A stretch of 64,000 nucleotides of DNA from Anaeromonas frigoriresistens (GTDB lineage: Bacteria; Bacillota; Clostridia; Tissierellales; SIT17): assembly GCF_016820655.1 (NCBI RefSeq), contig NZ_WSFT01000021.1, forward strand, positions 62,001 through 126,000, written 5' to 3'. The notes beneath the pieces were generated by a model. It did not search any database and had not been told where the DNA came from. It saw only the letters and a list, made by a program, of their open reading frames with translations. This document shows positions 19,026 through 37,737 of the stretch, one piece after another; position 1 is the first letter of the stretch; the number at the start of each line of letters is the position of its first letter. Position numbers and translations under genes: made by a program.

Positions 19026-19053
19026 GATAACCTCCTATTCTAAAATACCTAAA

Positions 19054-19077
19054 CAGCTCAGGCCTTAGCCCGAGCTG
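19054..19077 (-). repeat. Intercistronic hairpin between lipoprotein and ATPase genes
   Basis: Ten-base GC-rich arms (19054-19063, 19068-19077, one G-U) with a 4-base loop lie between the two genes, followed on the minus strand by a T-interrupted tract. It may be a leaky terminator or 3' stabiliser that lets the binding protein be made in excess. Confidence 0.6.
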
Positions 19078-19102
19078 CTAGTATTTACTTTCTTGAAGTT
19101 AA

Positions 19103-20164: not shown

Positions 20165-20220
20165 AAATACCCTCCTCAAATTTTTAATAATATAGAACTT
20201 TATACCTAGAATTATTCATA

Positions 20221-20324: not shown

Positions 20325-20360
20325 AAAATAAAAATAAAACCCCAGAAAAATCTGGGGTTT
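20325..20360 (-). terminator. Terminator of the glycine reductase operon
   Basis: Ten-base arms AAACCCCAGA/TCTGGGGTTT with a 4-base loop and a long T-rich tail on the minus strand begin at the grdD stop codon. Confidence 0.93.
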
Positions 20361-21543
20361 AACAATGGTCTGATTCTTGAGTGGTATACCCGGATTTTGC
20401 AAGAACTTCAATAGATTTTGATAATTTTTCTTCATTAACCATAACTATTGGTCCCGTACAACCCATGCCACTTTCAGCATATATACCATTCTTCCATAAC
20501 TCTTTCACTGCATCTTCTAGCTCCATTATATCTATACCGGAAATAGATCCAGTTACTATTTCTTTTTTCGGTGCTTTAACTTCTTCTTCTGAAGCTTCAG
20601 ATTTATTTTTTTCTTTTGTTAATCCCTTTAATATTTCATCATATTTTGCATTTTTAGCTTTCTTGTGCTCAGCTTTATTAACATTTAAGATATTACCCTT
20701 TGCAAGATCTGCTCCATACTCTATAGCATTTGCTACTACTGGAATACCTGAAGCTCTTGAAAGAATAAGAATATTTCTTTTATATCCATCTCCTACACCA
20801 GGTCCATATCCAAATCCTAAAGCTTCATAGCTTCCACCAGTGTTAAAGGAAGAGAATATTTTCATAAGAAGATTTCCCGTTAAACTATCAGTAATCATTA
20901 CATCTGGTGTTCCTGTAAGCAGATCATTCCCTCTCATTACGGATCCACCATCTTCTCTCATTGATTCTGAAAAGTTAATATCATATCCATTTTCATTTAA
21001 TTCTTTTAATGCTCTTTCTACTTGCCTTGCTCCATCTACATTAAGTATCCCTATTGAGGGATTTTCTATACCCATAGCTTTAGCAGTTATTATACCACTT
21101 AGGCCATTTTTCACCATAGCTTCTACTCTATGAGGAGATGAAGTACCAGTAGTAGTAGCAATAAACATTTCCTTTCCTACACCTGGAGTTACTACTCTAC
21201 CTACAGTTGAAACACCAATTGGAAAATTATAATGCATAGTCACTGCTGCATCTATTTCTTTAGAGTCTAGTAGCTCTTCCATTTTCTTATGTTGTTCATC
21301 TTCATCATTAGCTTCTACTACTCTAAGTTCTGTCTCAACCTTTGGTCCTATCAGAACAACCTCATAAGAGTTATTTCTTTTAGATGCAAGTTCTGCACCC
21401 TTTACGATATTCTCTATACCATGCTCGCTTCCCAGTAATGTAATACCTACTTTTACTTTATTACTAAATCCACCAGTTTCTATTCCTGTTGCTATGTCGT
21501 TAAATACTTTTCCTATTAACTGTTTTACGTTTTCTTCACTCAT
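20359..21543 (-). CDS. grdD: Glycine reductase complex component C, subunit alpha
   Basis: This 394-residue subunit of protein C takes part in converting the Se-carboxymethyl group of GrdA, via an acetyl-cysteine thioester, to acetyl phosphate. Sequence resembles the phosphate acetyl/butyryl-transferase fold. A cysteine near residue 362 in SGMGCTGPIVM matches the expected C-terminal active-site cysteine. The ATG (MSEENVK) lies eight bases after GGGGG; an upstream GTG is less likely. It follows grdC by 15 bases and is the last gene of the operon. Confidence 0.96.
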   Translation of the reverse strand: MSEENVKQLIGKVFNDIATGIETGGFSNKVKVGITLLGSEHGIENIVKGAELASKRNNSYEVVLIGPKVETELRVVEANDEDEQHKKMEELLDSKEIDAAVTMHYNFPIGVSTVGRVVTPGVGKEMFIATTTGTSSPHRVEAMVKNGLSGIITAKAMGIENPSIGILNVDGARQVERALKELNENGYDINFSESMREDGGSVMRGNDLLTGTPDVMITDSLTGNLLMKIFSSFNTGGSYEALGFGYGPGVGDGYKRNILILSRASGIPVVANAIEYGADLAKGNILNVNKAEHKKAKNAKYDEILKGLTKEKNKSEASEEEVKAPKKEIVTGSISGIDIMELEDAVKELWKNGIYAESGMGCTGPIVMVNEEKLSKSIEVLAKSGYTTQESDHC

Positions 21544-21558
21544 AATTTTCACCCCCTA

Positions 21559-23094
21559 CTATTTTAATAGGTGTGATGCAAAATCTCTCATAGCTTCTGC
21601 TACCATTCCTCTTATTTTCTCTTCAGATACTCCGGCAACTTCATCTACTACACCATTATTTTTCTCAATAACTACAGATACACCATCAAAAAGATTTGTC
21701 ATCCTACCAAGGAATAAACTTCCCTTTCCAACTATCATAGCCTTATTTATATTTCCTGCTAGCATTTCTTCCCTAGCAAATCCTATATATGGAACTCCTG
21801 ATGGAATATGTCCTTGAGTAGGTGCCCATCCTGGCATACCATGACCAGTAACAAAATTCATGAGTTCTTTTCTTTCTAATTCTTGTCTCTTAACTCCTAG
21901 AGCACCAATCATTTTATAGTTTGATGTAGGAACGTCTCCAGCTCCTGCTGGCTTTGTTATATCTGGATTTTGCATTTCCACTGAATATTTATCTATATCT
22001 GTAATCTTTAAATCACCCTTATCTAATGGGGCAGTTATCAAAGCTGTTATTACTGCTTGTGGTGATGATCCAGTACCAACGGTATGTCTTCCTACTAGGT
22101 CAGTTCTTATTACAGGATTTACCCCATCATTTTTGCTTATTAATACAGCAAAACCACCTAATACATCCTCTAATATTGGCATTTCCTTTTTAATATGGTC
22201 TTTACCATTCATTCCTAGTTTGGCAGTTGCTCCACCAGCTACTATAACTACATTTTCATATACTCCAGCTTGAACTAATGCAGCAGCTTCAATCAATGAA
22301 TGAGTAGGTGCAGCACAGAATCCTCTTGTATCTGAACCAGTAGCATTTATACAACCTGTAGTTTCAGCTATTGCTTTAGCAAAGTTTCCTCCACCTCTTT
22401 GATTCATATCGCCACAAGCTTCCTCAGAGCATTCAATTACATAGTCTATGCTCTCTGGATTTATATCATTCTTTGCTAATAAGTTAAGCATAGATAATAC
22501 TCCAGATGCTTTAACTACTAGATTCTCAAAAATAACATGGGCATTAAGGTTTACATCTATATCATGGGCTCTTTTAACACAGCCTACTATTTTACCATCA
22601 TTATATAAAGCTTCTGCATGATTTTCATTTATTTCTTTTTCTATTGTAGCTATTTCTTCACCAGCTTTTAAACCATTAACAAGTTCATCAGTCATAAGAG
22701 GATGATTAGTTAATTTTTCTCTAACCATATCTGTGAAAGAATTATCTAATAGTACTAGATCGAAAACATCTACTATTTTCATTAGTCCTATAAACTCATC
22801 TTGAGGCATTATTTCACCGAATTTACCAAATCTTTCGGCTCCCTCAACCTTTTTATCAAACCAAGGAAGATCATATTCACCTAATTTTTCTGGTGTCATA
22901 TTTCCTATATAAGTTTGATTTGCAGGATAACTAACAACATCTTCATAACTTCTTAAGTGGTTAGGAATCTTCTTTAAATATTCTGAATCTGGATTTACAT
23001 GTCTTTCCATAGTTTGGGTTGTACCATTATGAATTATCATATCTGGTGTATGAACTAATACATAAGACGAACCATTAATTACTGAAAATGACAT
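21559..23094 (-). CDS. grdC: Glycine reductase complex component C, subunit beta
   Basis: The 511-residue protein is related to beta-ketoacyl-ACP synthase III (FabH) enzymes and forms protein C with GrdD, releasing acetyl phosphate from the carboxymethyl-selenoether of protein A. The segments YVIECSEEACGDMNQRGGGN and GCINATGSDTRGFCAAPTHS hold the thiolase-like cysteines. The ATG (MSFSVING) is eight bases after GGAGG. It is 64 bases downstream of grdB. Confidence 0.96.
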   Translation of the reverse strand: MSFSVINGSSYVLVHTPDMIIHNGTTQTMERHVNPDSEYLKKIPNHLRSYEDVVSYPANQTYIGNMTPEKLGEYDLPWFDKKVEGAERFGKFGEIMPQDEFIGLMKIVDVFDLVLLDNSFTDMVREKLTNHPLMTDELVNGLKAGEEIATIEKEINENHAEALYNDGKIVGCVKRAHDIDVNLNAHVIFENLVVKASGVLSMLNLLAKNDINPESIDYVIECSEEACGDMNQRGGGNFAKAIAETTGCINATGSDTRGFCAAPTHSLIEAAALVQAGVYENVVIVAGGATAKLGMNGKDHIKKEMPILEDVLGGFAVLISKNDGVNPVIRTDLVGRHTVGTGSSPQAVITALITAPLDKGDLKITDIDKYSVEMQNPDITKPAGAGDVPTSNYKMIGALGVKRQELERKELMNFVTGHGMPGWAPTQGHIPSGVPYIGFAREEMLAGNINKAMIVGKGSLFLGRMTNLFDGVSVVIEKNNGVVDEVAGVSEEKIRGMVAEAMRDFASHLLK

Positions 23095-23162
23095 AATTTT
23101 CACCTCCGTAAGGAATTAATCATATTTTTTAAAAAGGGTGATATTTCTATCACCCTAAAGTT

Positions 23163-24470
23163 TTATTCAAATACTTTTTGTCCATCAACTTCAGTTTCAA
23201 GAGCTTTTAATGCCTTTTCAACTAAGTTTCTTCTTAATGATTTTTCTTCATCCATATCTAAACTTGGGTTTCCAAGAGGATGTGGTATTGCTATTGTTGG
23301 TACTATTCTATTGGCACCAACTGTTAATGAGATAGGTACTACAGTACACATATGAACTACTGGTAGCCCTGCTCTCTCTATTTCTTTTACCATCGTTGCA
23401 CCGCAACGTGTACAGGTGCCTCAGGTAGATGTTAATATAACTGCTTCTACTCCATCAGCTATAAGTTCCTTAGCAAACTCTTCTGCGAAAGCTTTAGAAC
23501 TAGCAACAGCAGTTCCATTACCTGTAGTAGTATAGAAATATCTGTGAAGCTCTCCAATTTTTCCTTCCTTTTCTAGGTCTCTTAATACATCTACAGGAAG
23601 TACTCTATCTGCATCTTCATTAGCATATACTGGATCATATCCACCATGAGCTGTTTCATGAGTTTCACTAGTTAAATCATTAAATCCTTGTATATCATAT
23701 TTACCATATTTAGATGCACTAGATGATTCAATATGATCAGGATTTCCTTTAGGTACTATACCACCAGAAGTTACTAATGCTATTTTCGATTTAGTTATAT
23801 CTTTGATAGCTGGATTTGGATCTACTCTATCAAAATTTGGCATAGGGAACTCAGTTTCAAACTTCTTCTTATTTAATTTATTGATAAGCATATCTACTGC
23901 TCTAGCAGAACCTCTCTTATCAGCAAAATAGTTCTTTCTAATACCTCTAGCCATATATCCTTCTTCTTTTGGTCCACCTATTTCTTCACCTTTTGCAAGT
24001 TTAATAGCAAATGGTGCCATAGTTTTTATTGCTTTTCTCATACCTGCAGCACTATTTTTTGTTTCCATTATATAAACGTCTTTCTTAAACATATCTGCTC
24101 CTGGATTTTCTTCATACATTCCAGTCAGTACAGGGATGTTAAGCTCCTCTTTCACTGCATTTGCGATAGTTCCACAAGCCACACCATATCTTCCAGCGTT
24201 GAAAGCAGGACCTGCAATAAATAAATCAGGGTTATACTCTTTTACCATATCAATAACTTTAGCTTTTGCTTCATCAAGGTTTTCATTAAAATATGAGTCA
24301 CCACATATTATAGTAGCTACTATTTCAGCTTCATCACCAAACTTTTTATTAAACTCCATACCAGGACCTACAATGCCCTCTCTTATTTCTGGCTTATAGT
24401 CAGCTTTTTCTTCACCACCAATACCAGCAAAGAACTGGTTAATGTAATGTACTATTCTTATTTTACTCAT
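23163..24470 (-). CDS. grdB: Glycine reductase complex component B gamma subunit, selenoprotein
   Basis: Read with one in-frame UGA as selenocysteine this gene encodes 435 residues. The UGA is at 23421-23423 (Sec350) in the context LTST-U-GTCTRCGAT, the known GrdB active-site motif with two nearby cysteines. Conventional translation would split it into a 349-residue protein and a separate 76-residue piece; no frameshift is present. GrdB with the GrdE-derived subunits binds glycine and passes the carboxymethyl group to selenoprotein A. A hairpin at 23394-23408 is a SECIS candidate. The start ATG is 37 bases after grdA. Confidence 0.96.
23394..23408 (-). ncRNA. Candidate SECIS hairpin in grdB mRNA
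   Basis: Starting 12 bases after the UGA, the mRNA reads CGTTGCGGTGCAACG: a perfect 6-base stem with a GGU loop. Bacterial SECIS elements lie immediately 3' of the UGA inside the coding region and bind SelB, so position and size fit. Confidence 0.65.
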
Positions 24471-24507: not shown

Positions 24508-24984
24508 TTAGTCGTTAAATTTACAGAATTCTTCTCTAATATCTGTCATTTCTTCAATGATTTCATCTACTTCAAGAACCATTTCCATCATTCCAATTTG
24601 ATCTTCGTAAACGTCAGCATCTACTTCGCCTTTGAATTGTGGTTCTACTGCATGATATACTCTAAGTCCTAACTGGACTCCTGCTAATGGACCTGCGAAT
24701 GTTGGGTCTCCAGCTGTTACAGTTTCTGCAGCTAATCCTGCAGCTTCTGCTTCAGCAGCACCTAAAACAACGATTACATTCTCTGCACCGTGCTTTTCAG
24801 TTATATCTTTAACCCTCTTTTGATTCTCTAAGTCCATTGCTCCTGCGGCAGTTCAGACAAAACACTCAGTTGATGAAAATACTACTTCTGCTTCTGTTGA
24901 TTTTAAGCATTCTTCCATAGCAGGACCTGGTATACCATCTCTGTCCCCTATGATAACTACTTTTTTGCCATCATATAAGCTCAT
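24508..24984 (-). CDS. grdA: Glycine reductase complex selenoprotein A
   Basis: The 158-residue selenoprotein carries the carboxymethyl group between proteins B and C. The UGA at 24853-24855 encodes Sec44 in [16 protein letters not shown], exactly the position and motif of known GrdA proteins. The ATG giving MSLYDGKKV is chosen because AGAAGGG lies nine bases upstream; an ATG three codons earlier abuts that site. Without Sec decoding only the C-terminal 109 residues would be found. It is followed by grdB and preceded by grdE with a 29-base gap. Confidence 0.97.
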
Positions 24985-25013
24985 CTTTAACATCCCTTCT
25001 TTTTAAAATTATA

Positions 25014-26300
25014 TTAGTATCCTTTAGCTGTTAACTTGTTAAATCCTAATTCGTTAGTAGCTCCTGTTATAGCTTGTATCTCAACAACAATACTACCATC
25101 TTCCTTAAGACTTCCATCAAATCCACCAGCAATTTTGTTTGCTACTCTTGCATCTCCTATAACTTTATCCATTGGTGGTAACTCTATAACCTCATTAGCA
25201 TTTCCACCTGTTACAACAGCATCCGCTTTAGGATCTGCATCTGCAAGAGATTGACTTGCACCATCTCTTCCAGCATACTCATCTGTAATTATTACAGTAT
25301 CTATACCTTTATCTTCTATCTTTTTACAGTTCATGATTAAATCTGTATCAGGGTTACCAAATCCCTCTTGAGATATTATAACACCATCTAATCCTAGATA
25401 TTCAGCTAATTTAGCTGTCCAATCTGATGATCTTTCTTTATCTGCAAGGTAAACATTTTCATTAGTTATAATCATTCCAACAAAATTTATTTCTTTTCCA
25501 TGCTTCTCAAACATATCATGGATAACTGGATTGTTTAAATGATGATAAGTTGTGTTTTTATCACAAGCAGAAACACAGTTACCACTAATTATTGCACCAT
25601 CCATTATTTCTGTTGGATTTATTAAAGTAGATAAGGTTTGCTTAGCGTCTACTCCATATACATATGTATCATGCATCAACCCTTGACTTTGAAGCATTTG
25701 AACATATGCTACCTTTGGAAGTTCTGGATACTTTTCTACACTCTTAAGTAATGATAATGTCTCATAAGTATTTATCTCGTCTGGCTCTACATCTCTACCA
25801 GCTTCTCCTAAATATTTACTAGACTTTAATCCTACCATTCTTAATGCTTTTTCATGCTCATGTTGTTTTAATCCTTCTTTTACTTCACATGAAATAACAA
25901 CATTATTTAGTTTAGAAAATGGTGTATAATCAGCTCCAGGACCAGTCATATCAACTATACCCTCTTGGAAAGCTACTATCTTACCAGTTGTAACTACTGC
26001 TGCACCCTTAAGTACATGAGTTCTACCAGTACCTACTGTTTCTACCTTTGATAATACTCCTGGGAAAATTCCACCTGGGCCATCTACCTTTACCCTAGGT
26101 TCCACTACATCCTTTACAGGTGTAATTCTAATACTTTTACCTGGCCTAGCCATCTCTATGCTTACACTAGTGATGTTCTCATCTTCTAATAATAGATTTG
26201 TAAGCTCATCTTTGTTTACATAAAGTACGCCATCAACAACTTTTGTTTCTTCTCCAAATTGTACATCCTTTATAAGGATATTACCTAATTCCAGGCGCAT
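25014..26300 (-). CDS. grdE: Glycine reductase proprotein GrdE (component B alpha/beta)
   Basis: The 428-residue proprotein is cleaved into two subunits, the larger bearing an N-terminal pyruvoyl-type carbonyl derived from cysteine that forms a Schiff base with glycine. With this start the conserved cleavage site SGN-C-VSACDKN falls at Asn241-Cys242, matching the position reported for clostridial GrdE. The ATG (MRLELGN) has GAGGAGG eight bases upstream; a 16-residue upstream in-frame extension is rejected. It follows trxA by 69 bases. Confidence 0.97.
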   Translation of the reverse strand: MRLELGNILIKDVQFGEETKVVDGVLYVNKDELTNLLLEDENITSVSIEMARPGKSIRITPVKDVVEPRVKVDGPGGIFPGVLSKVETVGTGRTHVLKGAAVVTTGKIVAFQEGIVDMTGPGADYTPFSKLNNVVISCEVKEGLKQHEHEKALRMVGLKSSKYLGEAGRDVEPDEINTYETLSLLKSVEKYPELPKVAYVQMLQSQGLMHDTYVYGVDAKQTLSTLINPTEIMDGAIISGNCVSACDKNTTYHHLNNPVIHDMFEKHGKEINFVGMIITNENVYLADKERSSDWTAKLAEYLGLDGVIISQEGFGNPDTDLIMNCKKIEDKGIDTVIITDEYAGRDGASQSLADADPKADAVVTGGNANEVIELPPMDKVIGDARVANKIAGGFDGSLKEDGSIVVEIQAITGATNELGFNKLTAKGY

Positions 26301-26369
26301 ACAATTCACCTCCTCTTTTTGTTTACCTAAGGCTATATCTAAAGACATATCCTTAGAAAATTTGAAAAT

Positions 26370-26687
26370 TTATATATATTTATTAATCATTTCTTCAATT
26401 TTTTCAGGTTTTGCTTCGTCTTTAGTTAATTCATCAACTTTCTCGCCATCTTTGTATATTGTAACTGTAGGTAATCCTAACACCTTTTGCTTGATAGCTA
26501 ATCTTCTTGCAGCTGAAGTATCAAGTTTAACAAATTTTATTTGCTCACCATATTTACCTTCTAATTCCTCGATATGAGGCATTAAAGCCTTACAAGGTTC
26601 ACAGCTTTTTCCCCAAAAATCTACAAGTACATATCCTTCAGTTTGTAAAACTTCTTCTTCAAATGTCTTCTTATCTACCTCTAACAT
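26370..26687 (-). CDS. trxA: Thioredoxin with CEPC active site
   Basis: The 105-residue thioredoxin has the fold landmarks VLVDFWG, GLPTVTIYKDGE and active site WGKSCEPCK near residue 28-36. The usual WCGPC is replaced by CEPC, and residues before it also differ; thioredoxins of glycine-reducing clostridia are known to deviate in this way. It would regenerate reduced selenoprotein A using electrons from the adjacent TrxB. Good AGGAGG ribosome-binding site. Confidence 0.95.
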   Translation of the reverse strand: MLEVDKKTFEEEVLQTEGYVLVDFWGKSCEPCKALMPHIEELEGKYGEQIKFVKLDTSAARRLAIKQKVLGLPTVTIYKDGEKVDELTKDEAKPEKIEEMINKYI

Positions 26688-26725: not shown

Positions 26726-27673
26726 TTATTCCTCAAAATTGTTTTCAATATATTTTTCAGCTTGGATAGCAGAAATAGCTCCATCTGCTGTTGCAGTAAC
26801 CACTTGTCTTAGAGTTTTAACTCTACAATCTCCAGCAACAAAAACTCCTTCTACATTTGTCTTCATGTTTTCATCACCGATTATATATCCTCTATCATCC
26901 ATATCGATGATTCCTTTAAACAATTCAGTTTGTGGAAGATACCCAACCATTACAAATATTCCAAATGTGCCATCTTCTTCATTTGCAACTATTTCTTTCT
27001 CTTCCCCTGTTTCTCTGTTTCTTAGTACCATTGATTCAACGATACCATCACCTTTAATTTCTTTTACTTCAGTATTCCAGATAACATCTACTTTATCATT
27101 ATTAAATACTTTTTCTTGAATTGATTTAGCTGCTCTTAGTTCATCTCTTCTGTGAACTATAGTAACTTTTCTAGCAAATTTTGATATGAATAAGGATTCT
27201 TCAACTGCAGTGTCTCCTCCACCAATTACATATACATCAAAATCTTCAAAGAATGCGGCGTCACATGTAGCACAGTAAGATACACCTTTACCAGTTAGTT
27301 CTTTTTCTCCTGGTGCCCCTAGAAGTCTAGGCTTGGCTCCTGTTGCGATAACTATAGCTTTAGCTTTATACTCGCCCTTCTCACCTTTTACCACCTTTAT
27401 TTTTTCATCTAAGTTTATTTCTTTTATCTCATCAAGTTTTCTTTCAACACCAAAACTGTCTGCTTGTTCTACCATCCTAGCAACTAATTTAGGACCTGTA
27501 GGATCTTCTACTCCACCTGGATAGTTCTCTACTTCTTCTGTAGTAACTATTTGCCCACCAGCCTTTTCCTTCTCTAAAATAAGAGTGTCTAATTTAGCTC
27601 TACCTGCATATAATCCAGCAGAAAGTCCAGCTGGTCCAGCACCAATTATTATAACATCATAAATTTTTTCCAC
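26726..27673 (-). CDS. trxB: Thioredoxin reductase
   Basis: The 315-residue flavoprotein has the FAD motif IIGAGPAGLSAGLYAGR, the redox-active CATC near residue 138, the NADPH motif GGGDTAVEE and HRRDELR, which is typical of NADPH-using rather than ferredoxin-dependent enzymes. It transfers electrons to TrxA. The start is GTG, eight bases after GGAGT. It lies between grdX and trxA. Confidence 0.97.
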   Translation of the reverse strand: MEKIYDVIIIGAGPAGLSAGLYAGRAKLDTLILEKEKAGGQIVTTEEVENYPGGVEDPTGPKLVARMVEQADSFGVERKLDEIKEINLDEKIKVVKGEKGEYKAKAIVIATGAKPRLLGAPGEKELTGKGVSYCATCDAAFFEDFDVYVIGGGDTAVEESLFISKFARKVTIVHRRDELRAAKSIQEKVFNNDKVDVIWNTEVKEIKGDGIVESMVLRNRETGEEKEIVANEEDGTFGIFVMVGYLPQTELFKGIIDMDDRGYIIGDENMKTNVEGVFVAGDCRVKTLRQVVTATADGAISAIQAEKYIENNFEE

Positions 27674-27756
27674 TTATTTCAACTCCTTTTTAATGTTTAC
27701 TCAACATTTTATATTATACCCAAAATTGGTATTTTAAAAAAAACTAAATTTACAAA

Positions 27757-28125
27757 TTATTTAAAACATCCATCAATCAAAGATAAATCTACAACTTGGA
27801 AATCTTCTTTTGCCTTATCGATAAAACTAGTTTTACCAATTTTATTGATAAACTTATCAGCAGTTTGTATACTTTCTTCAATTATCATTAATGATTCCAT
27901 ATCTAACTTCTCTTTTTCCTTAGAAATAATAATTGACTTATATGGAGTTTCATTGGGTTTTATACTACCTGACAATGGATGTGTTAATAACTTATGTCCA
28001 ATATGTATATGGTCTCTTGCTTTTTGTAATACTTCAAGATATTCAACATCAAAATATTTCACTTCATAATATTTTGAATATTTTTTATCTACTAAAGGAT
28101 TATTGGTTAATATTATCTTTGCCAT
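27757..28125 (-). CDS. grdX: GrdX family protein
   Basis: The 122-residue protein begins MAKIILTNNPLV and contains HPLSGSIKPNETPYKSIII, as in GrdX proteins encoded at the head of glycine reductase operons. Its function is unknown. No catalytic motif, signal peptide or membrane segment is seen. AGGAGG lies before the ATG. As first gene after the riboswitch it reports the operon boundary. Confidence 0.85.
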   Translation of the reverse strand: MAKIILTNNPLVDKKYSKYYEVKYFDVEYLEVLQKARDHIHIGHKLLTHPLSGSIKPNETPYKSIIISKEKEKLDMESLMIIEESIQTADKFINKIGKTSFIDKAKEDFQVVDLSLIDGCFK

Positions 28126-28168
28126 AGTTACCTCCTGTCCTTAGGAAAAGGTTTTTATAGTTATTACT

Positions 28169-28203
28169 AAAAAAGAGCATAGACACTTAAAGTGCCTACG
28201 CTC
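28169..28203 (-). terminator. Riboswitch-controlled terminator before grdX
   Basis: Arms of about 13 bases (GAGCGTAGGCACTT/AAGTGTCTATGCTC, two G-U) are followed by six T residues on the minus strand. Its 5' arm GAGC abuts the 3' strand of the second aptamer's P1 (28201-28205), so P1 formation and the terminator compete. Confidence 0.88.
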
Positions 28204-28382
28204 TGTTCCAAACCTGAGAGATTCTTCCTACTTAAGGAGTTGCTCCTTCGGTGCTTTCGCTTTTCAGAGTGCTGTCCAAAAACGGTCCTTTTGCCTGAGA
28301 GCTTCACTATAGTTTGGCTTTCTATAACTTACCCCTTCGGCGCCATAAAATTGGTCTCTTCCGCTTCTTTCATACAGCCTAT
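28201..28382 (-). promoter_or_regulatory. Tandem glycine riboswitch
   Basis: Two successive glycine aptamers are visible on the minus strand: the first with GCGCCGAAGGGG and CTCTCAGGCAAAAGGAC, the second with GCACCGAAGGAGCAA and CTCTCAGG. P1 of the second pairs CTCTG (mRNA from 28269) with CAGAG (mRNA to 28201). Tandem glycine riboswitches usually turn on glycine-use genes; here glycine binding would stabilise P1, break the overlapping terminator and let the grd operon be transcribed. With its promoter it fills the 28126-28494 gap. Confidence 0.95.
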
Positions 28383-28401
28383 ATTTAATTTCTATACCCA
28401 T

Positions 28402-28430
28402 ATTATAATATATAGAAATCCTTATTACAA
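28402..28430 (-). promoter_or_regulatory. Sigma-A-type promoter of the grd operon
   Basis: Minus-strand TTGTAA (28425-28430), 17-base spacer and consensus TATAAT (28402-28407) predict a start near 28395, just upstream of the first aptamer. Confidence 0.75.
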
Positions 28431-28494
28431 TTACTTTTTTGTAATAAACAGTAAGTTTTTGTTAAAAATTTGTCTATCTCTTTATTTAGGCTTA

Positions 28495-29601
28495 TTATTT
28501 AACCTCTATTAAGTCATACTCTTTAGTACCTAAGCCTATTTCCTCACAATAATCTAATATTTTTTTGCCATCTATTTTATGTATGGATTTGAATTTATCA
28601 TCTCCTATTTGATGATCACAAGGTAATTGACTATCTTTGTTCCCTAATGCCTTATCTATTAAATCTACACTAGCTTTATCAATAGCAACAGGGTCAAAAG
28701 AAGCTAATATACCAATATCATTAACAATAGGTACATCATTCCAAGGTACACAATCACATAAAGGAGTGACATTCATTACGAAATTAAAATATGCCACCTT
28801 ACCATCTTTATTTTTAACTGCTCCATATGCATATTCAGCCATTTTTTCTAAAAATACATCAGAGTCTGTCTCCCACTGAACCTCAATTGCTCTTTTAGGA
28901 CAAACAGTTGTACATTCTCCACACCCAATACATATATCATGATGTATAAATGCTTTATTCTTCATTTCTATAGCATCCACAGGACAATTCTCGATACAAA
29001 TTCCACATGAAATACATTTTTTATCTATTACCGAAGGTTTTGAATCAGAATGTTGTATTTGTTTCCCACTAGCTGATGCACATCCCATTGCAATATTTTT
29101 AATGGTACCTCCAAATCCTGCCATACCATGACCTTTTACATGACTTAATACAATCATTGAGTTAGAATTATATATATCTCCTGCTATCTTAGCAGTTTTA
29201 CAATTTTTTTGATTAATTTCTACATCTACAGAATTTTTACTATATAACCCATCAGCGATAATAACTGGAGCATTTACTACAGAATATGCGAATCCATTTT
29301 CAATTGCCGTTTTGATATGATCTACACTATTTGTTCTACTACCTGTATAAAGGGTATTTGTATCAGTTAAAAATGGCTGGGCACCGTACTCCTTAGTCTT
29401 ATCTACAATTTGTCTTGCAAAGGTAGGATGTAGATAAGCATGTCTACCCTTTTCTCCAAAATGAACTTTTATTGCGGTAATGTCCCCTTCAGTCAATACA
29501 TTTTTTATATCTGCCTTCTCAAATAACCTTTGTATTTTATTGTGAATATTATTTCTTTTATTCTCAGATCTAAAGTTAATAAAATATACTTTACTTTTCA
29601 A
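28495..29601 (-). CDS. DUF362 protein with 2[4Fe-4S] ferredoxin domain
   Basis: The 368-residue protein has a DUF362 N-terminal domain (about 1-185, with GHGMAGFGGTIKNIAMGCAS) and two ferredoxin motifs, CISCGICIENCP and CIGCGECTTVCP (about 195-240), followed by a C-terminal DUF362 part. A redox role is likely but the substrate is unknown. The start is taken as TTG preceded by AAAGGGGG; an upstream in-frame extension would swallow that site. It lies just upstream of the grd promoter in the same direction, with no terminator seen in between. Confidence 0.85.
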   Translation of the reverse strand: MKSKVYFINFRSENKRNNIHNKIQRLFEKADIKNVLTEGDITAIKVHFGEKGRHAYLHPTFARQIVDKTKEYGAQPFLTDTNTLYTGSRTNSVDHIKTAIENGFAYSVVNAPVIIADGLYSKNSVDVEINQKNCKTAKIAGDIYNSNSMIVLSHVKGHGMAGFGGTIKNIAMGCASASGKQIQHSDSKPSVIDKKCISCGICIENCPVDAIEMKNKAFIHHDICIGCGECTTVCPKRAIEVQWETDSDVFLEKMAEYAYGAVKNKDGKVAYFNFVMNVTPLCDCVPWNDVPIVNDIGILASFDPVAIDKASVDLIDKALGNKDSQLPCDHQIGDDKFKSIHKIDGKKILDYCEEIGLGTKEYDLIEVK

Positions 29602-29722
29602 AAATTTACCCCCTTTAAAATTATTTATAAACACCTAATTCTATTATAGTATATAGGATAGAAATTTAAAAATATTATTACAATCAAAGTAATCAATTTT
29701 CTATTTCAAGTATTAAAGATTG

Positions 29723-29756
29723 ATATAAAAAAAGGCCCTAGGGCCTTTTTTTATAT
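29723..29756. terminator. Palindromic terminator after the Na/Pi symporter gene
   Basis: A 34-base perfect palindrome with core GGCCCTAGGGCC flanked by seven A and seven T residues can terminate on either strand. It lies five bases from the symporter stop. Confidence 0.88.
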
Positions 29757-29760
29757 TAAT

Positions 29761-31380
29761 CTATTTTATTTGTCCACCTTCTATTGCATCCATAATTGAT
29801 AATGCAATGTTTGAAGAGTGATCCGCAATTCTTTCTAAGTTGCTTATTGTATCTAAGAATACGATACCTGAGCTAGGATTACAAGCTAGTTTATTTAATC
29901 TATCTATATGATTTGCTCTATAATCCTTCTCCATTTTATCAATCATACCCTCATATTCAATAACTCTTCTAGCTATATTTGTATCAGCTGTTTTATAAGC
30001 AGATAGTGATAATTCAAAGGATTCTTCAACATTCTCAAACATAACTTTTAATTCAGATAATGCGCTATCTGATAGTCTTACTTTATTATCAATTTTATAT
30101 TGAGCTAGTTCTGCTATGTTATCTGCATGATCTCCTACTCTTTCTAGATCATTTATTGTGTTAAATAATGTTGTTATTGTACTATGTTGTTCATCTGTCA
30201 ATGGGGCATTCATCAATTCTGCTAAGTATTCTGTTATATCTCTTTCTAATTGATTGATTCTTTTTTCTTCTTTAAATACTTTCATAGTTAATTTCTCATC
30301 ATTATTATAAAAAGCTATCTTAGATAATTCTAAGTTTTGTTTAACTATTTTACCCATTCTTAATACTTCCCTAGATGCCATTCCAACAGCAATAGATGGG
30401 GTTTCAATAATTCTTGAATCTAAGTATTTAAGTCCTACTACTTCTTCATCTTCTCCTGGTACTAATTTCTTAGCTGCTATAACTATTAACCCAGCAAAAG
30501 GTAATTGAACCAATACATTTACTATATTAAAAATAGTGTGAGAGTTTGCTATCTGTCTTTGTACATTTCCTGGACTTAAACTTACAACAAATTCCTTCAT
30601 AGGTGTTACATATATCAAGAACATAAAAAATGCTGTACCAAAAATATTGAATAACAAGTGCATCATTGCAGCTCTTTTAGCAGTTTTACTAGCTCCTATA
30701 CTAGAAAGCAGTGCAGTAACACAAGTACCAATATTTTGTCCAAATAATATGGGAAAAGCTATATCAAGAGTTACTAGACCTGATGCAGTTACAGCAAGTA
30801 ATAGTCCAGTAGATGCACTACTACTTTGTACTATTACAGTTATAGCAAATCCTACTAATATTCCCAATATAGGATTATTCAAGCTAACCATTAAATCTTT
30901 AAAGACCTGAGAACCGCCTAAGGGTTTTAATTGAGAACTCATCATTGCCATACCCAAGAATAATATACCAAATCCAATTAATATTTCAGCAATATCTTTA
31001 TTCTTTCTTTTAGATGTAAATAACCAAATTCCTACACCTATAGCTATAACTAATGGTGCTATGTCTGTTAATTTAAATGCTATTAATTGAGCTGTTATTG
31101 TTGTACCAATATTAGCACCCATAATAACACCTATTGCTTGAGTTAAATTCATTAATCCTGCATTTACAAAACCAACAACCATTACCGTTGTCGCACTACT
31201 ACTTTGTACCAATACAGTAACAAAAGCTCCTACAAGAACTCCCAAAATTCTATTATTAGTTAGAACTCCTATTAATTTCTTTAGTTTATCACCAGCTACT
31301 TTTTGTAATCCCATTCCCATTAGATTCATACCGTATAGGAATAGTCCTAGTCCACCTAAAACACCAAACAATAATTCCAT
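29761..31380 (-). CDS. Na+/phosphate cotransporter family protein with PhoU-like domain
   Basis: The 539-residue protein has an N-terminal Na/Pi-cotransporter domain (about 1-310) with two inverted-repeat motifs, VLVQSSSATTVMVVGFV and VIVQSSSASTGLLLAV, followed by a PhoU-like helical domain (about 335-535). It should import phosphate with Na+ or modulate such transport. The ATG (MELLFG) is seven bases after GGGAGG. Pho-box-like repeats upstream (31440-31495) suggest induction by phosphate starvation. Confidence 0.92.
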   Translation of the reverse strand: MELLFGVLGGLGLFLYGMNLMGMGLQKVAGDKLKKLIGVLTNNRILGVLVGAFVTVLVQSSSATTVMVVGFVNAGLMNLTQAIGVIMGANIGTTITAQLIAFKLTDIAPLVIAIGVGIWLFTSKRKNKDIAEILIGFGILFLGMAMMSSQLKPLGGSQVFKDLMVSLNNPILGILVGFAITVIVQSSSASTGLLLAVTASGLVTLDIAFPILFGQNIGTCVTALLSSIGASKTAKRAAMMHLLFNIFGTAFFMFLIYVTPMKEFVVSLSPGNVQRQIANSHTIFNIVNVLVQLPFAGLIVIAAKKLVPGEDEEVVGLKYLDSRIIETPSIAVGMASREVLRMGKIVKQNLELSKIAFYNNDEKLTMKVFKEEKRINQLERDITEYLAELMNAPLTDEQHSTITTLFNTINDLERVGDHADNIAELAQYKIDNKVRLSDSALSELKVMFENVEESFELSLSAYKTADTNIARRVIEYEGMIDKMEKDYRANHIDRLNKLACNPSSGIVFLDTISNLERIADHSSNIALSIMDAIEGGQIK

Positions 31381-31439
31381 AATAAATCCTCCCACTATTT
31401 AAATATTTATAAGCGCAAATAATATAATACAATAAAAAA

Positions 31440-31495
31440 TGTCGACTTTTGTTAAATCCATGTTAAATTTATTATTTTTGTTTATCCTGTGTTAA
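31440..31495 (-). promoter_or_regulatory. Putative Pho box upstream of the Na/Pi symporter
   Basis: On the minus strand TTAACA-type hexamers end at + positions 31490, 31479 (TAAACA), 31461 and 31450, in two pairs each with an 11-base period, followed by TCGACA at 31440-31445. Direct TTAACA repeats with 5-base spacers are the known Firmicute PhoP-binding pattern. Confidence 0.6.
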
Positions 31496-31962
31496 ATCAT
31501 ATTGGGAAAATCTATCTGTCTTAAAGCTTCATAAACAATAATATTTACTGAATTAGCCAAGTTCAAGGATCTAGCATTTTTATTATTAATCATTGGGATC
31601 CTTAAACAAGTTTCTTTATTTTCATTTAATATTTCTTCTGGAATACCTTTGGTCTCTTTTCCGAATATAATGTAACAGTCATCATTAAACTCCATATCAG
31701 TATAGGAATGATCAGCTTTTGTAGTGGCATAAAAAACTTTGTTTTGCCCTACTTTCTCAATTAATTCTTCATAACTATCATAATAATGGACATCCAATAA
31801 ATCCCAATAATCTAATCCTGCCCTTTTTAAATGTTTACTATCTAAAGAAAAACCTAATGGTCTTATTAAATGTAGTGATGATCCAGTAGCTGCACAAGTC
31901 CTAGCAATATTACCTGTGTTTTGTGGAATTTCTGGTTCCATTAATACAATATTTATAGCCAT
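31492..31962 (-). CDS. trmL: tRNA (cytidine(34)-2'-O)-methyltransferase
   Basis: The 156-residue SPOUT methyltransferase has N-terminal LMEPEIPQNTGNIARTCAATG and the knot motifs FGKETKGIPEEIL and RSLNLANSVNIIVYEALRQ. TrmL methylates the wobble ribose of certain tRNA-Leu. Length and motifs match the family fully. Its stop overlaps the putative Pho box of the next gene. It follows the CheX-like gene by 17 bases. Confidence 0.95.
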   Translation of the reverse strand: MAINIVLMEPEIPQNTGNIARTCAATGSSLHLIRPLGFSLDSKHLKRAGLDYWDLLDVHYYDSYEELIEKVGQNKVFYATTKADHSYTDMEFNDDCYIIFGKETKGIPEEILNENKETCLRIPMINNKNARSLNLANSVNIIVYEALRQIDFPNMI

Positions 31963-31979
31963 AAAATAACCTCCATTTC

Positions 31980-32456
31980 TTATTCTAAATCTATATATAA
32001 TTCTACTTTATCATTTCTCCAAAGAAAAGGTATACTGTATATTTTATTATTAATAAAATATAATAATATATCCTTACCCATGATTATAGTAGGAGGAGTA
32101 AAATTCAAATGAATATTCAATTCAAATAATCTTGATATAGCATTACCTAAAACAATTGATATCAACTCATTAATTGAATTTTTTACATTATCATCAAATA
32201 TTATATTTGGTAAACCATTCATCATGTTTGATGATATTTCCATCGCTATATTATGAGACAATTCTATAGCTACTTGTCCTTTAAAATCTCCATTAATCCC
32301 TATCAATATAATTACATTTTCATATGCATTTACTTGATTTGTTAAGTAATTACTATCACTATTCAATTGAATATTTACCATTTGAAGAAATATATCCTCT
32401 AAAGCTTTTTTAAAAGACTTGATTATTTTACTGTTTATATTGTTATTTATTCCCAT
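31980..32456 (-). CDS. CheX-like chemotaxis phosphatase-family protein
   Basis: The 158-residue protein resembles the CheC/CheX/FliY fold: INGDFKGQVAIEL, MEISSNMMNG and a second helix SINELISIVLGNAISRL, the N residues of which correspond to the phosphatase-site E-x2-N pattern (NELISIVLGN). CheX proteins dephosphorylate CheY-P. There are no chemotaxis or flagellar genes nearby, so its partner could be another response regulator. Its first 14 bases overlap the end of the upstream DUF362 gene, implying coupled translation. Confidence 0.7.
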   Translation of the reverse strand: MGINNNINSKIIKSFKKALEDIFLQMVNIQLNSDSNYLTNQVNAYENVIILIGINGDFKGQVAIELSHNIAMEISSNMMNGLPNIIFDDNVKNSINELISIVLGNAISRLFELNIHLNFTPPTIIMGKDILLYFINNKIYSIPFLWRNDKVELYIDLE

Positions 32457-33372
32457 GAAAATCCTTAATTTTACCTTTGTCTAATATAACTTCTTTATTA
32501 TACGCTTTTAATGAAAATTCTCTCTCTATTTCTTCTAATGGTATTCCTTTTAAGTTTACGTTTTTTAATTCTGCTTCACCTATACCCATTTTATGTAGTT
32601 TATATAGGTAATTGATGGCTTGAGGTAAAAAACCTAACATTCTAGCACCTATAGTATCCGTAGATATTGGATCAGTTCCAGCAACAATAATTCCATTTGT
32701 ATCTATAGCTCTACCATCAGAAGGACCAGTACCAATCATTACTTTATCAGCGGATATTATTGTTAAGTCTATGGGTATTCTTTCAGTTATTGCACTAATA
32801 AAACCATGTAAATCCTCATGAATTCCTAAATCTTTTTTAGGAAATCCATGTATTTCAGCTGGAGGCCACCCTAAGGCTATATTCTTAATCCCTGCACTCA
32901 TAGTAGCTTCTTCATGCATTTTTAATTGAGTGAAAGATACTAGGACATCCATGTTTTCTAATATATTATTAATTTTTGTTTTACTAGGATTATTATGATT
33001 TATTTCTATTTCTGTATATGGACCATAATTTAAATCAATAAACTTCACATTGTTATCTTTTATTACTTTATCATATCCTACATAATTCATAACTTTAGGA
33101 GTTTCATCCCCTCCAGATCCTGTTGCCACAATTATTTCTCCTGGATTATATTTCTTCAGAAGCTTTATCAATTTATCTAGTGTTTCTGGACCTACTACTG
33201 TAGCAGTGTTAGGAAGTTTTGATTTTACCCAATTCGGAGTAATAACTACTCTGTCATTTTCATTAATAATTCTTTCTAAAGGTAGATGCCTTAAGCATTT
33301 TTCCAATGAGTTTATTTCTTTATTGTCTTTTTCAATAGCTACTATAGATTCTCTTACTTTTCTTGTTCTCAT
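32443..33372 (-). CDS. DUF362 domain-containing protein
   Basis: The 309-residue protein has the DUF362 features VVITPNWVKSKLP, IIVATGSGGDETPKVM and LGWPPAEIHGFPKKDLGIHEDLHG but no ferredoxin cysteines, unlike the other DUF362 protein in this window. Function is unknown. The ATG follows GAGGTG. It overlaps the CheX-like gene and follows a 34-base palindromic terminator. Confidence 0.75.
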   Translation of the reverse strand: MRTRKVRESIVAIEKDNKEINSLEKCLRHLPLERIINENDRVVITPNWVKSKLPNTATVVGPETLDKLIKLLKKYNPGEIIVATGSGGDETPKVMNYVGYDKVIKDNNVKFIDLNYGPYTEIEINHNNPSKTKINNILENMDVLVSFTQLKMHEEATMSAGIKNIALGWPPAEIHGFPKKDLGIHEDLHGFISAITERIPIDLTIISADKVMIGTGPSDGRAIDTNGIIVAGTDPISTDTIGARMLGFLPQAINYLYKLHKMGIGEAELKNVNLKGIPLEEIEREFSLKAYNKEVILDKGKIKDFHGNK

Positions 33373-33386
33373 TATATCACCTCATA

Positions 33387-33420
33387 AAAATAATAGACCT
33401 TATATAAGGTCTATTATTTT
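33387..33420. terminator. 34-base palindromic terminator after the HAD gene
   Basis: A perfect palindrome with core GACCTTATATAAGGTC lies between the HAD phosphatase stop and the DUF362 start; AT-rich ends provide T tracts for both strands. Confidence 0.75.
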
Positions 33421-33447
33421 ATATACTCAAGAAATTTATTCTCCCTT

Positions 33448-34269
33448 TTATAAAATGTACTTTTTTATAGCTTTGGCTACTCCATCATTATCATTTGTAT
33501 CTGTTACGAATGTAGCATATTCTTTTACTAAATCAATCCCATTTTCCATAGCTACAGAAGTTCCTGCAAACTCTAACATGGATAAATCATTTTCATTATC
33601 CCCTATTGCAATTACTTCTTCTCTTTTAATATCATAAATATTGCATAGTTCTTTTAAGGCTTTTCCTTTTGATACACCTTTATACATTATATCTAAACTG
33701 CTATGCCAAGAACTAACTATTTCTATGTTCTCGTTTAATGATAGTTCTTTTCTGACTCTCATTATTTTTTCTATATCTTTATCCATTACCACAAATTTAT
33801 ATATTTTAATATCATTATTATGAACAAATTCTATTGGATTATTAATTATCTCAATATGAATTTTATTTTCTTCCTTTTGTTTTTCATTCCATTCATAATA
33901 TTTTAGTGAATTATAATCTAAATCTTTTGTATAGAATATTTCATTATCATAAAAATGATAGTATAAATTATTTTTTTCAAATACTTCAATTATTTTTTGA
34001 ACATCTTCTTTATTTATTGGATGATGTAGTAATACGTTTTCTCTGTGGTATTCACTAACATAAGCTCCATTACATGCGATTATCGGCGTTATAACACCAA
34101 CAAATTTTGCAAAATATATTGCTGATGTGAATATCCTTCCTGTAGATATTACTACTTGAATGCCTTTATCTGTAGCCATTTTAATAGCTTTTCTATTCTC
34201 TTCTGATACTTTTCCTTCATTATCTAGTAAAGTCCCATCCATATCTATTGCTATTAATTTGTACTTCAA
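33448..34269 (-). CDS. Cof-type HAD-IIB family hydrolase
   Basis: The 273-residue HAD phosphatase has motif I AIDMDGTLLDNEG (nucleophile Asp), motif II ISTGR, the lysine GVSKGKAL and motif IV GDNENDLSMLEFAG, with an intervening type IIB cap. Such enzymes dephosphorylate sugar phosphates or cofactors such as FMN; the substrate here is not known. The start is TTG with GAGGAGG upstream. Confidence 0.93.
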   Translation of the reverse strand: MKYKLIAIDMDGTLLDNEGKVSEENRKAIKMATDKGIQVVISTGRIFTSAIYFAKFVGVITPIIACNGAYVSEYHRENVLLHHPINKEDVQKIIEVFEKNNLYYHFYDNEIFYTKDLDYNSLKYYEWNEKQKEENKIHIEIINNPIEFVHNNDIKIYKFVVMDKDIEKIMRVRKELSLNENIEIVSSWHSSLDIMYKGVSKGKALKELCNIYDIKREEVIAIGDNENDLSMLEFAGTSVAMENGIDLVKEYATFVTDTNDNDGVAKAIKKYIL

Positions 34270-34301
34270 CTCAATTTCCTCCTCTGTTTAATATTACTAA
34301 T

Positions 34302-36554
34302 CTAAATTATATACTTATATACTAATAATTTTAATGTGCCTTTTTTATTTTTTACCTCGTTTTCTAGTTTTTCTATTAACCTTTTACCTGTAACCTGCTC
34401 TTCAAAGGATATTTCTTTATTTCCATAGACAGATTTCATATAAACATTAATAAATCTATATAACTCATTATTTAACTCTCCATTTAAACTAATCCTATCT
34501 ACATACTCTAAATCCGTTTCACCAAGTTCCTTATCATATCCTAAGAAAGATAATAATCTATTGATTTTCATATGATATACAACTATTTTTTCACTTGTAG
34601 TTAATTTTTTAATTCTTCTATTTTTTATAGTTGTTATTATTATTCTATATATTAGATAAATTAATAATAAAAATGCTATTATCAATAAAATAGATACAAT
34701 ATAAAACCCATTAGATCTATTTCTAATTTTATTACTTCCTCTAGTATCAATTTCTCCTACTTCACCCATAAGTTCATCTTCAAACAAGTCTTCTCTCATT
34801 CTTTGGCCAGCGAGGCCATCATTTGGCTGAGAATCATTACCATCATCTTCAGCTATAGAATCATCTTCTACTTCCTCTTTTTCTTGATAGTCTGGTGTTT
34901 GATATGCAGGTGTGGCTTCAAAAATCATCCATCCGTAACCACTTATATAAGCTTCAACCCAAGCATGAGCATATTTACTATAAACTTTATAAGTACCATC
35001 TTCTTTTTCATCACCAGTAATAAATCCTTCTACATATCTAGTAGGTACATCAACACTTCTTCCCATTACAGCTAATGCTGAAGCAAAATATGTACAATAT
35101 CCTTTTTTAGTTTCAAATAAAAAGTGATTTACAAAATCATCATTATACCCATTATTACCAGGAGTTAATGTATATTCATAATTCTCTCTCAAATGATTTT
35201 GTAGCATCATCATCTTTTCATAATCATTCTTAGCATTCTTTGTTATATCAAATGACAAATCATGGGTAGCAGAAGGTACAGAATTTGGAAGTTTAAGATA
35301 TTCTTGAAATCTTTCCTCTTTATCATATTTGGCATCTAATTTACTTGTATCAAAATAAGGAATTCTTGATTTTACTGTATACCCTTTATCTTTTAGAATA
35401 ACTTTATTAGTATATATTTCATATTCATCACTTACATAATAATCATCATCATAATCAACTTTTATAGGAACATAACTATTAAATATTGTAGATGTAGTCA
35501 TATTATTATATTTGATTTTATAGGTTACCTCACTATAACTATTTGTATCCATATCTCGTATATCAATAGTTGAGTCTTTTAGTTGTCTACTTACATTGTC
35601 ATCTTCACTTTTCCAAAAAAAGCCTGTATATTTGTTACTTACTCTACCTTTTAAATATAATGGACGATCACTTTCAACCTCCATAACTAAGGTGTTCTTT
35701 AGTTTTATATCCCCTCCAAGTCTTTTTTCCTCTTTTTGATATTGTGTATAGGATAAATCAAACTTTAAACTATTTCCATAACCTCTAGATTTTTTTAAAT
35801 TATTTCTCCATTCTGTAACTTCAGGAAATGTATCTTGAACTTTATTATCCATCCACCTCCATGTTATTGGTGGATTATCTTTAGGTAAAATAAAAGCTAT
35901 TAATATTATTATTACCGATGTGAGAATAGAATATATAAAAAGCGATTTAATATTATAGTTACTATAATCTTTTTTATTCATCTGCCATTCTAATTCATTG
36001 TACTTATATCTATTATAAACATAAAGTAAAAGCACAGATAATATAAAAACATAGTAATAAGTTAATGCAGTATCTTGGTACAAAAACCATCTATATAGAA
36101 AATAAGCCGTACCTAGTATTAATAATGGGTATACCCTTTTAAATTTAAAAACAATAATATATATAAATAATGATAATACCATTGTAAATAATACTATAAA
36201 AAAATTAAAATATTTTAAGTTTATAGCTATATCATAGTTAATATATTTGATTACCCAAAAGCTAAAATCCTCTAATTCATTTATATAACTTCTATAAACT
36301 TGATTATAATATCTATTAGCTATTAGTGAAACAATAAGCCCTAAAGACATCAAAATTATTAAGGTTATGGGCTTTTTATCAACGATATAGAAAATTAATA
36401 TAAATATAAAAGTTGAGATAGAAATTAGACTTATATGGGTCAATGATATTGTATCACCTATTGCATCAGTGGATATTTTTATTATGGTGAAATTTATTAT
36501 AAAAGTTAAAAATAACCTATAGAAAAATCCTAACACTTTTTTCAAGTTTATCAC
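34302..36554 (-). CDS. Transglutaminase-like membrane protein (DUF3488/DUF4129 type)
   Basis: The 750-residue protein has about six N-terminal membrane helices (1-225), an extracellular transglutaminase-like domain with Cys in KKGYCTYFASALAVMGR, His in YAHAWVEAYISGYGW and Asp-type ending FEATP, an acidic linker, and one late membrane helix (about 625-650) followed by a cytosolic tail. It forms a conserved trio with MoxR and DUF58 genes upstream. The GTG start overlaps the DUF58 stop by 4 bases. Substrate unknown. Confidence 0.9.
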   Translation of the reverse strand: MINLKKVLGFFYRLFLTFIINFTIIKISTDAIGDTISLTHISLISISTFIFILIFYIVDKKPITLIILMSLGLIVSLIANRYYNQVYRSYINELEDFSFWVIKYINYDIAINLKYFNFFIVLFTMVLSLFIYIIVFKFKRVYPLLILGTAYFLYRWFLYQDTALTYYYVFILSVLLLYVYNRYKYNELEWQMNKKDYSNYNIKSLFIYSILTSVIIILIAFILPKDNPPITWRWMDNKVQDTFPEVTEWRNNLKKSRGYGNSLKFDLSYTQYQKEEKRLGGDIKLKNTLVMEVESDRPLYLKGRVSNKYTGFFWKSEDDNVSRQLKDSTIDIRDMDTNSYSEVTYKIKYNNMTTSTIFNSYVPIKVDYDDDYYVSDEYEIYTNKVILKDKGYTVKSRIPYFDTSKLDAKYDKEERFQEYLKLPNSVPSATHDLSFDITKNAKNDYEKMMMLQNHLRENYEYTLTPGNNGYNDDFVNHFLFETKKGYCTYFASALAVMGRSVDVPTRYVEGFITGDEKEDGTYKVYSKYAHAWVEAYISGYGWMIFEATPAYQTPDYQEKEEVEDDSIAEDDGNDSQPNDGLAGQRMREDLFEDELMGEVGEIDTRGSNKIRNRSNGFYIVSILLIIAFLLLIYLIYRIIITTIKNRRIKKLTTSEKIVVYHMKINRLLSFLGYDKELGETDLEYVDRISLNGELNNELYRFINVYMKSVYGNKEISFEEQVTGKRLIEKLENEVKNKKGTLKLLVYKYII

Positions 36555-37726: not shown

Positions 37727-37737
37727 ATTATCACCAC

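Follow-up and report, generated by a model that had tools for sequence, protein, structure and literature searches.

Organization of the glycine reductase locus

The analyzed window, i.e., the whole stretch of 64,000 nucleotides of Anaeromonas frigoriresistens DNA, carries on its minus strand a leader of ~270 nt upstream of grdX and, after it, eight genes in the directly observed order grdX-trxB-trxA-grdE-grdA-grdB-grdC-grdD, all on the minus strand. The first three genes were recognized by NF038093 (grdX, 27757..28125, 138.7 bits), TIGR01292 (trxB, 26726..27673) and NF047697 (trxA, 26370..26687), the last two above cut-off. The best model for grdE, which encodes protein B alpha (25014..26348), was that of the related GrdG (NF040793, 672 bits, below its cut-off of 780). 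The genes for selenoprotein A (grdA, 24508..24993) and selenoprotein B (grdB, 23163..24458) were identified by NCBIfam models, and each contains one in-frame UGA, at residue 47 in grdA and at 23423-23421 in grdB. A SECIS_4 element (23383..23420, minus strand, 64.8 bits) is located immediately 3' of the grdB UGA; the start of grdB is provisional, and its frame, when read through the UGA, reaches 24566. The cluster ends with grdC (21559..23103, NF040746) and grdD (20359..21552), the latter assigned by PF02504, its size and its position after grdC. The eight co-directional genes, together with the UGA codons and the SECIS_4 element, confirmed the gene content of the putative eight-gene Sec-dependent glycine reductase operon that had been proposed in the original prediction.

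Several neighboring features were also observed. Directly after grdD, genes for a Bmp/PnrA-type lipoprotein and an ABC ATPase are present on the same strand (17487-20179, minus strand). The product of the gene upstream of the leader (28495-29634, minus strand) is a DUF362 protein containing 4Fe-4S motifs. Between this gene and a Na/Pi cotransporter-like gene, there is a very long inverted repeat (29717-29762, 20 pairs counted), which resembles a terminator on the plus strand.

A tandem glycine riboswitch upstream of grdX

Two matches to the glycine riboswitch family (RF00504) were found in the leader, corresponding to aptamer 1 (28273..28373, minus strand, 62.1 bits) and aptamer 2 (28193..28277, minus strand, 38.3 bits), the latter with divergent J1/2 and J3/1. 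Both score above the gathering threshold of the family (32 bits), and the two glycine aptamers claimed previously were thus recovered by the Rfam covariance model. The cmscan output contained aptamer 1 only, and the second aptamer appeared in a separate RF00504 search. Its absence from cmscan is probably explained by the 5-nt overlap between the two matches, from which the best overlapping match would have been retained. A single-aptamer reading of the cmscan listing was rejected because the RF00504 search gives two aptamers above the cut-off. The glycine-GGAnGA variant (RF03166) was rejected as well (73.6 bits, below its gathering score of 110).

In the predicted fold, the P0 5' strand GCUGU (28374..28378, minus strand), which is followed by the kink-turn sequence AUGA, pairs with the P0 3' strand ACAGC in the linker (28271..28275), in agreement with the consensus. 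The two aptamers are therefore joined by P0 (GCUGU/ACAGC) and a leader-linker kink-turn (UGA...GGAC), as in tandem glycine riboswitches, and the P0 and kink-turn nucleotides flank aptamer 1 on both sides. P3b of aptamer 1 ends in the loop AAAGCCAAA (28313..28321, minus strand). Based on the consensus alignment and coordinates, P1 of aptamer 2 consists of CUCUG (28269-28265) and CAGAG (28205-28201), exactly the strands that had been proposed. Aptamer 2 is not a ghost hairpin of the kind found in type-1 singlets, as its length from P1 to P1 is 69 nt and its score 38.3 bits. The leader (28166-28396) also folds more stably than its shuffles (z = -2.6). These features indicate that the element is a genuine two-part glycine-sensing RNA switch, and it is predicted to bind glycine.

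A candidate sigma-70-type promoter (TTGTAA-17-TATAAT, 28402..28430, minus strand) lies ahead of the leader and matches the consensus at 10 of 12 positions. Promoter-like sites were not enriched in the region 27500-38500 (78 vs. 78.8 in shuffles), so the promoter call rests on its position.

Overlap of the terminator with P1 of aptamer 2

Aptamer 2 is followed by an intrinsic terminator hairpin (28174..28204, minus strand) with 14 bp and an energy of -20.3 kcal/mol (hairpin energies here are nearest-neighbour calculations). Its arms, AGAGCGUAGGCACUU (28204-28190) and AAGUGUCUAUGCUCU (28188-28174), are followed by a U run down to 28169. Six terminator-like sites were detected in the region 27500-38500, compared with 2.6 +/- 1.6 in shuffles. 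The nucleotides AGAG (28204-28201) belong both to the terminator 5' arm and to the P1 3' strand CAGAG (28201..28205), such that the terminator competes with the aptamer P1, as is typical of ON-type switches. The terminator base had previously been thought to abut the P1 3' strand. The two do have an edge in common, but their relation is a true overlap rather than mere abutment.

If P1 kept CAGAG (28205-28201), a residual 10-bp hairpin (28200-28178, -11.1 kcal/mol) would still be available 3 nt ahead of the U run, so that P1 alone need not abolish termination. The P1-terminator lever is real, but perhaps insufficient by itself. A T run is present within 90 nt in 109 of the 112 distinct grdX-linked riboswitches (see below), and 91 of these 109 rows have a downstream hairpin into which the P1 strand is paired. 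When the P1 strand was included, the median energy of the downstream hairpin was -17.0 kcal/mol; without it, the median was -8.1 kcal/mol, and 56 of the 109 rows retained -8 kcal/mol or better.

Covariation between the P3b loop of aptamer 1 and the terminator arm

The loop of P3b in aptamer 1 may form a pseudoknot (P5) with the terminator 5' arm. In the window, the presumed P5 pairs the loop strand GCC (28318-28316, minus strand) with GGC in the terminator 5' arm (28194..28196, minus strand), a helix of only 3 bp in this genome. GCC:GGC is the whole of P5 here, and a rival match, AAAG:CUUU, scores equally; thus, the window sequence by itself would not prove P5. The riboswitch architecture before grdX was found in all four genomes of the genus that were compared (including that of A. 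frigoriresistens), the presumed P5 being GCC:GGC in three of them and GCC:GGU in one. The terminator stems remain paired despite substitutions across these four genomes.

We then analyzed this pairing across the grdX-linked class. Loci were selected by GrdX (80 named genomes and further genomes), and extraction by pattern yielded 119 distinct riboswitches in 129 of 268 GrdX loci, some species being represented twice. One spurious row (the second of L074) was removed before the tests, leaving 118, of which 112 have distinct loop and arm. Four misparsed rows were kept (L163, called ghost, and L047, L069 and L237, with misplaced P1), and eight Lachnospiraceae loci with reduced leaders (L099, L113, L121, L131, L132, L138, L140, and L144) fell outside the extraction. 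The central 10 nt of the aptamer-1 P3b were matched with the 14 nt after aptamer-2 P1, and the within-sequence match was compared with that of shuffled pairs (10,000 shuffles).

A significant relationship between loop and arm was observed in the 112 rows (10.70 vs. 9.76, z = 4.4, 0/10,000 shuffles) and in the 30 rows lacking GGC in the arm (10.50 vs. 8.00, z = 5.0, 0/10,000). An earlier and looser version of the test (12-nt loop, 16-nt arm) gave z = 3.3 for 112 rows. Shared ancestry was considered as the source of the signal and rejected, since the signal persisted when a single representative of each 75% cluster was kept (n = 43, 11/10,000; without GGC, n = 17, 5/10,000), and it was weaker at 65%. 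At this strictest thinning (n = 18), the loop-arm signal (z = 2.2, 173/10,000) was accompanied by a linker control of z = 2.0 (231/10,000); the linker control gave z = 2.0 in the unthinned set and 0.7 at 75%. The other controls, run on the unthinned set, were negative (z = 0.4 for the aptamer-2 P3b loop, -1.1 for aptamer-1 P2, and -2.1 for later terminator sequence). A two-dimensional scan with 8-nt windows (76 representatives, 140 cells) peaked at z = 6.5 for the P3b center and offset +4 after P1. The next cell (z = 3.8) lies at offset 0, where the first 8 nt downstream of aptamer-2 P1 are compared with a window that begins 24 nt upstream of the aptamer-1 core.

Helices of at least four Watson-Crick pairs occurred in 75 of the 112 rows (shuffle mean 47.8; 0/10,000 as high) and in 24 of the 30 non-GGC rows (8.9 in shuffles), whereas helices of at least 6 bp were not above shuffles in the 112 rows (4 vs. 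4.1). Examples of mixed composition include UUCCC:GGGAA (L091 and L095), CUGUC:GACAG (L125), UUCUCUU:AAGAGAA (L171), AUACU:AGUAU (L249), and GUAGCU:AGCUAC (L112).

Riboswitches were also collected independently of GrdX, by RF00504 matches, which added 55 rows (misparsed rows L002, L015, L327, and L345 included). The loop-arm signal was strong in this riboswitch-first set (z = 8.2, 0/10,000; aptamer-2 P3b control, z = -0.9). Downstream genes were classified afterwards: 17 of the 55 rows have grdX or trxB, and the remaining 38, in which neither was recognized and 21 of which have no gene assignment, gave z = 6.0 (0/10,000). The gcvT subset was weak (n = 12, z = 1.8, 368/10,000) and the EIIC subset was null (n = 5). 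At the 31-row stage of this set, longer arms gave weaker results (29/10,000 for an arm of 18 and 122/10,000 for an arm of 20). The 22 rows fetched last, when loop and arm lengths were already fixed, gave z = 6.9 (0/10,000); they comprise 11 grdX, 1 trxB, 2 gcvT, and 8 unassigned rows, and come from 60 loci hand-picked among the matches listed, mostly of ~100 nt or longer. In these 22 rows, P5 reaches up to nine contiguous pairs (CCGCUACUU:AAGUAGCGG in L395). When both sets were pooled, P5 was mainly located on the terminator 5' strand (82 of the 109 rows whose helix has at least four pairs).

No convincing P5 was found by eye in the eight Lachnospiraceae leaders or in rows L106, L137, and L191. 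The proposed P5 pairing thus covaries in the glycine reductase riboswitch class, yet it is not universal. In six of the Lachnospiraceae leaders (L099, L113, L131, L132, L138, and L140), aptamer 2 also appeared much reduced on inspection by eye, and the P3b loops share a GGYG for which no clear partner was seen. In another locus (L062, 912 and 1269), a single grdX is preceded by two successive tandem glycine riboswitches, both complete and each with a terminator-like arm of its own.

Divergence of aptamer 2

Neither GGAGAG nor GGAC, two stretches that glycine aptamers commonly contain, is present in aptamer 2 of the window, and glycine binding by this aptamer is therefore uncertain. The same trend was observed in the 95 aptamer-2 rows of the grd class (three of which have a misplaced P1): GGAGAG is missing from J1/2 in 86 rows and GGAC from J3/1 in 92, and GGACAG is kept there in 31 of the 55 riboswitch-first rows. 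On the other hand, most grd aptamer-2 rows retain the presumed pocket strands, CUCUCAGG in 87 of 95 rows and ACCGAAGG(A/G)GCAA in 66 of 95. Aptamer 2 was classed as ghost in 17 grd rows, 15 of them 17-26 nt long, and the loop-arm test in these 17 rows gave z = 2.6 (28/10,000).

A tentative and rather speculative idea is that grd switches form an asymmetric class, in which aptamer 1 would sense glycine and grip the terminator 5' arm via a freely evolving P5, and aptamer 2 would be shrinking to a P1 scaffold. If so, the tandem would clamp the terminator at two points and not serve as a cooperative sensor.

Other glycine riboswitches

The same genome contains a second tandem glycine riboswitch (contig C9:38922-39114, L002/L003, 56.9 and 38.7 bits), which precedes a gene for a 364-aa membrane protein with a PTS_EIIC_2 domain, possibly a transporter. 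A similar gene is present downstream of L303, L312, L316, and L317. Glycine aptamers with a reduced partner on the 5' side were also seen (L007, L010, L013, L016, L020, L021, L028, L030, and L031). The product of the next gene in L010, L013, L016, and L021 starts with M(K/R)(A/S)(V/I)-x-TIIG(E/K)DKVGIIA; the riboswitches look like type-2 singlets before putative ACT-domain genes.

Proposed mechanism and alternative explanations

Considering the anatomy of the leader and the class-level covariation, the most reasonable hypothesis (probability of roughly 0.85) is that an ON-type tandem riboswitch controls transcription of grdXtrxBAgrdEABCD, and that the hold by P1 and the contact by P5 together free read-through. 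When glycine is scarce, the nascent leader would form the 28174-28204 terminator, whose 5' arm would take AGAG from aptamer-2 P1, and transcription would stop ahead of grdX. With glycine bound, the aptamers linked by P0 and the kink-turn would dimerize and aptamer-2 P1 would retain CAGAG, while the P3b loop of aptamer 1 would pair with the middle of the terminator 5' arm. The arm would then be held at two points and polymerase could read through. The switch thus very probably turns on the eight-gene glycine-fermentation operon, although we infer this direction for the present organism, and the 3-bp P5 is likewise presumed to work here as in the class. Antitermination by glycine through P1, as originally proposed, fits the anatomy and agrees with the published reading of Clostridioides difficile (PMC11477304, PMC10880999), but a P1 lever that leaves a hairpin of -11.1 kcal/mol is perhaps only a part of this mechanism, and P5 had been missed.

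It is conceivable, if rather unlikely, that competition of aptamer-2 P1 with the terminator base suffices in this genome and that the loop contact is dispensable. In favor of this view, AGAG makes for a strong overlap, the full terminator gains 9 kcal/mol over the residual hairpin, P5 is just 3 bp in the genus, and the B. subtilis gcvT riboswitch is reported to switch through its terminator (PMC5666159). However, the residual 10-bp hairpin is still a plausible terminator, 56 of the 109 grd rows stay at -8 kcal/mol or better once the P1 strand is removed, and loop and arm covary throughout the class.

We also consider it doubtful that aptamer 2 is a degenerate, non-binding scaffold and that aptamer 1 alone senses glycine and acts through P5. 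The lower score of aptamer 2 (38.3 vs. 62.1 bits), the frequent absence of GGAC and GGAGAG in the class (92/95 and 86/95), and the persistence of the loop-arm signal in ghost rows point in this direction, but a pure scaffold would not need the pocket strands that are widely kept (87/95 and 66/95).

An OFF switch, in which glycine promotes termination as in some glycine riboswitches of the symporter class (PMC11477304), is highly improbable, since the terminator draws on the very P1 strand expected to be held upon ligand binding, P5 reportedly does not occur in OFF types (PMC13104608), and grd transcription of C. difficile is reported to rise with glycine (PMC11477304). That the element is a degenerate remnant without regulatory function hardly deserves consideration: aptamer 2 is diverged and P5 is minimal, but the parts are kept in 4/4 genus genomes and the terminator stems stay paired despite substitutions.

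Comparison with known systems

According to a 2024 review, a glycine riboswitch precedes the eight-gene grd operon of C. difficile (PMC11477304; also PMC10880999), and its ON logic was inferred there from the increase of grd transcription on addition of glycine (PMC11477304). As this riboswitch has already been described as ON (PMC11477304), the main idea is not new. By description, the present locus resembles that of C. difficile (CD2357-48) in having a glycine riboswitch ahead of an eight-gene glycine reductase operon, and it belongs to a different organism of Bacillota. In both cases, the energy pathway of an amino-acid-fermenting anaerobe would be tied to its own substrate, as already proposed for C. 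difficile.

The tandem riboswitch of B. subtilis gcvT (PMC5666159) likewise has two aptamers, a leader-linker kink-turn and terminator-based ON control, but it governs glycine cleavage, unlike the grd switch. Similar to the type-1 singlet with a 3' ghost aptamer (PMC6944388), the grd switch has a conserved aptamer 1 and a reduced partner whose P1 is kept; in contrast to that singlet, aptamer 2 of the window is still above the RF00504 cut-off. The reason for having two aptamers in glycine riboswitches is disputed (PMC7357161, PMC9481103). An aptamer-1 loop that covaries with the terminator would represent a direct handle of aptamer 1 on the expression platform, and the glycine reductase class supplies many natural compensated variants for testing that handle.

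Loop-arm pairing was initially considered as a new feature, as it is not evident from abstracts, and this was dropped since PMC13104608 credits the P5 pseudoknot to Torgerson et al. (2020). Among the papers searched, the term P5 pseudoknot was confined to PMC13104608, according to which ON types frequently have this pseudoknot and OFF types lack it. As in the switch of Torgerson et al. (2020), the P3b stem-loop would pair with a stretch just after aptamer 2 (PMC13104608). That source cites P5 as a poly-C:poly-G pairing of aminomethyltransferase switches, whereas the grd class shows many mixed helices, with 3 bp in the window. Relative to what PMC13104608 describes, the present analysis adds a P5 in the glycine reductase class, which is of mixed composition, mostly involves the terminator 5' arm, and persists where aptamer 2 is reduced.
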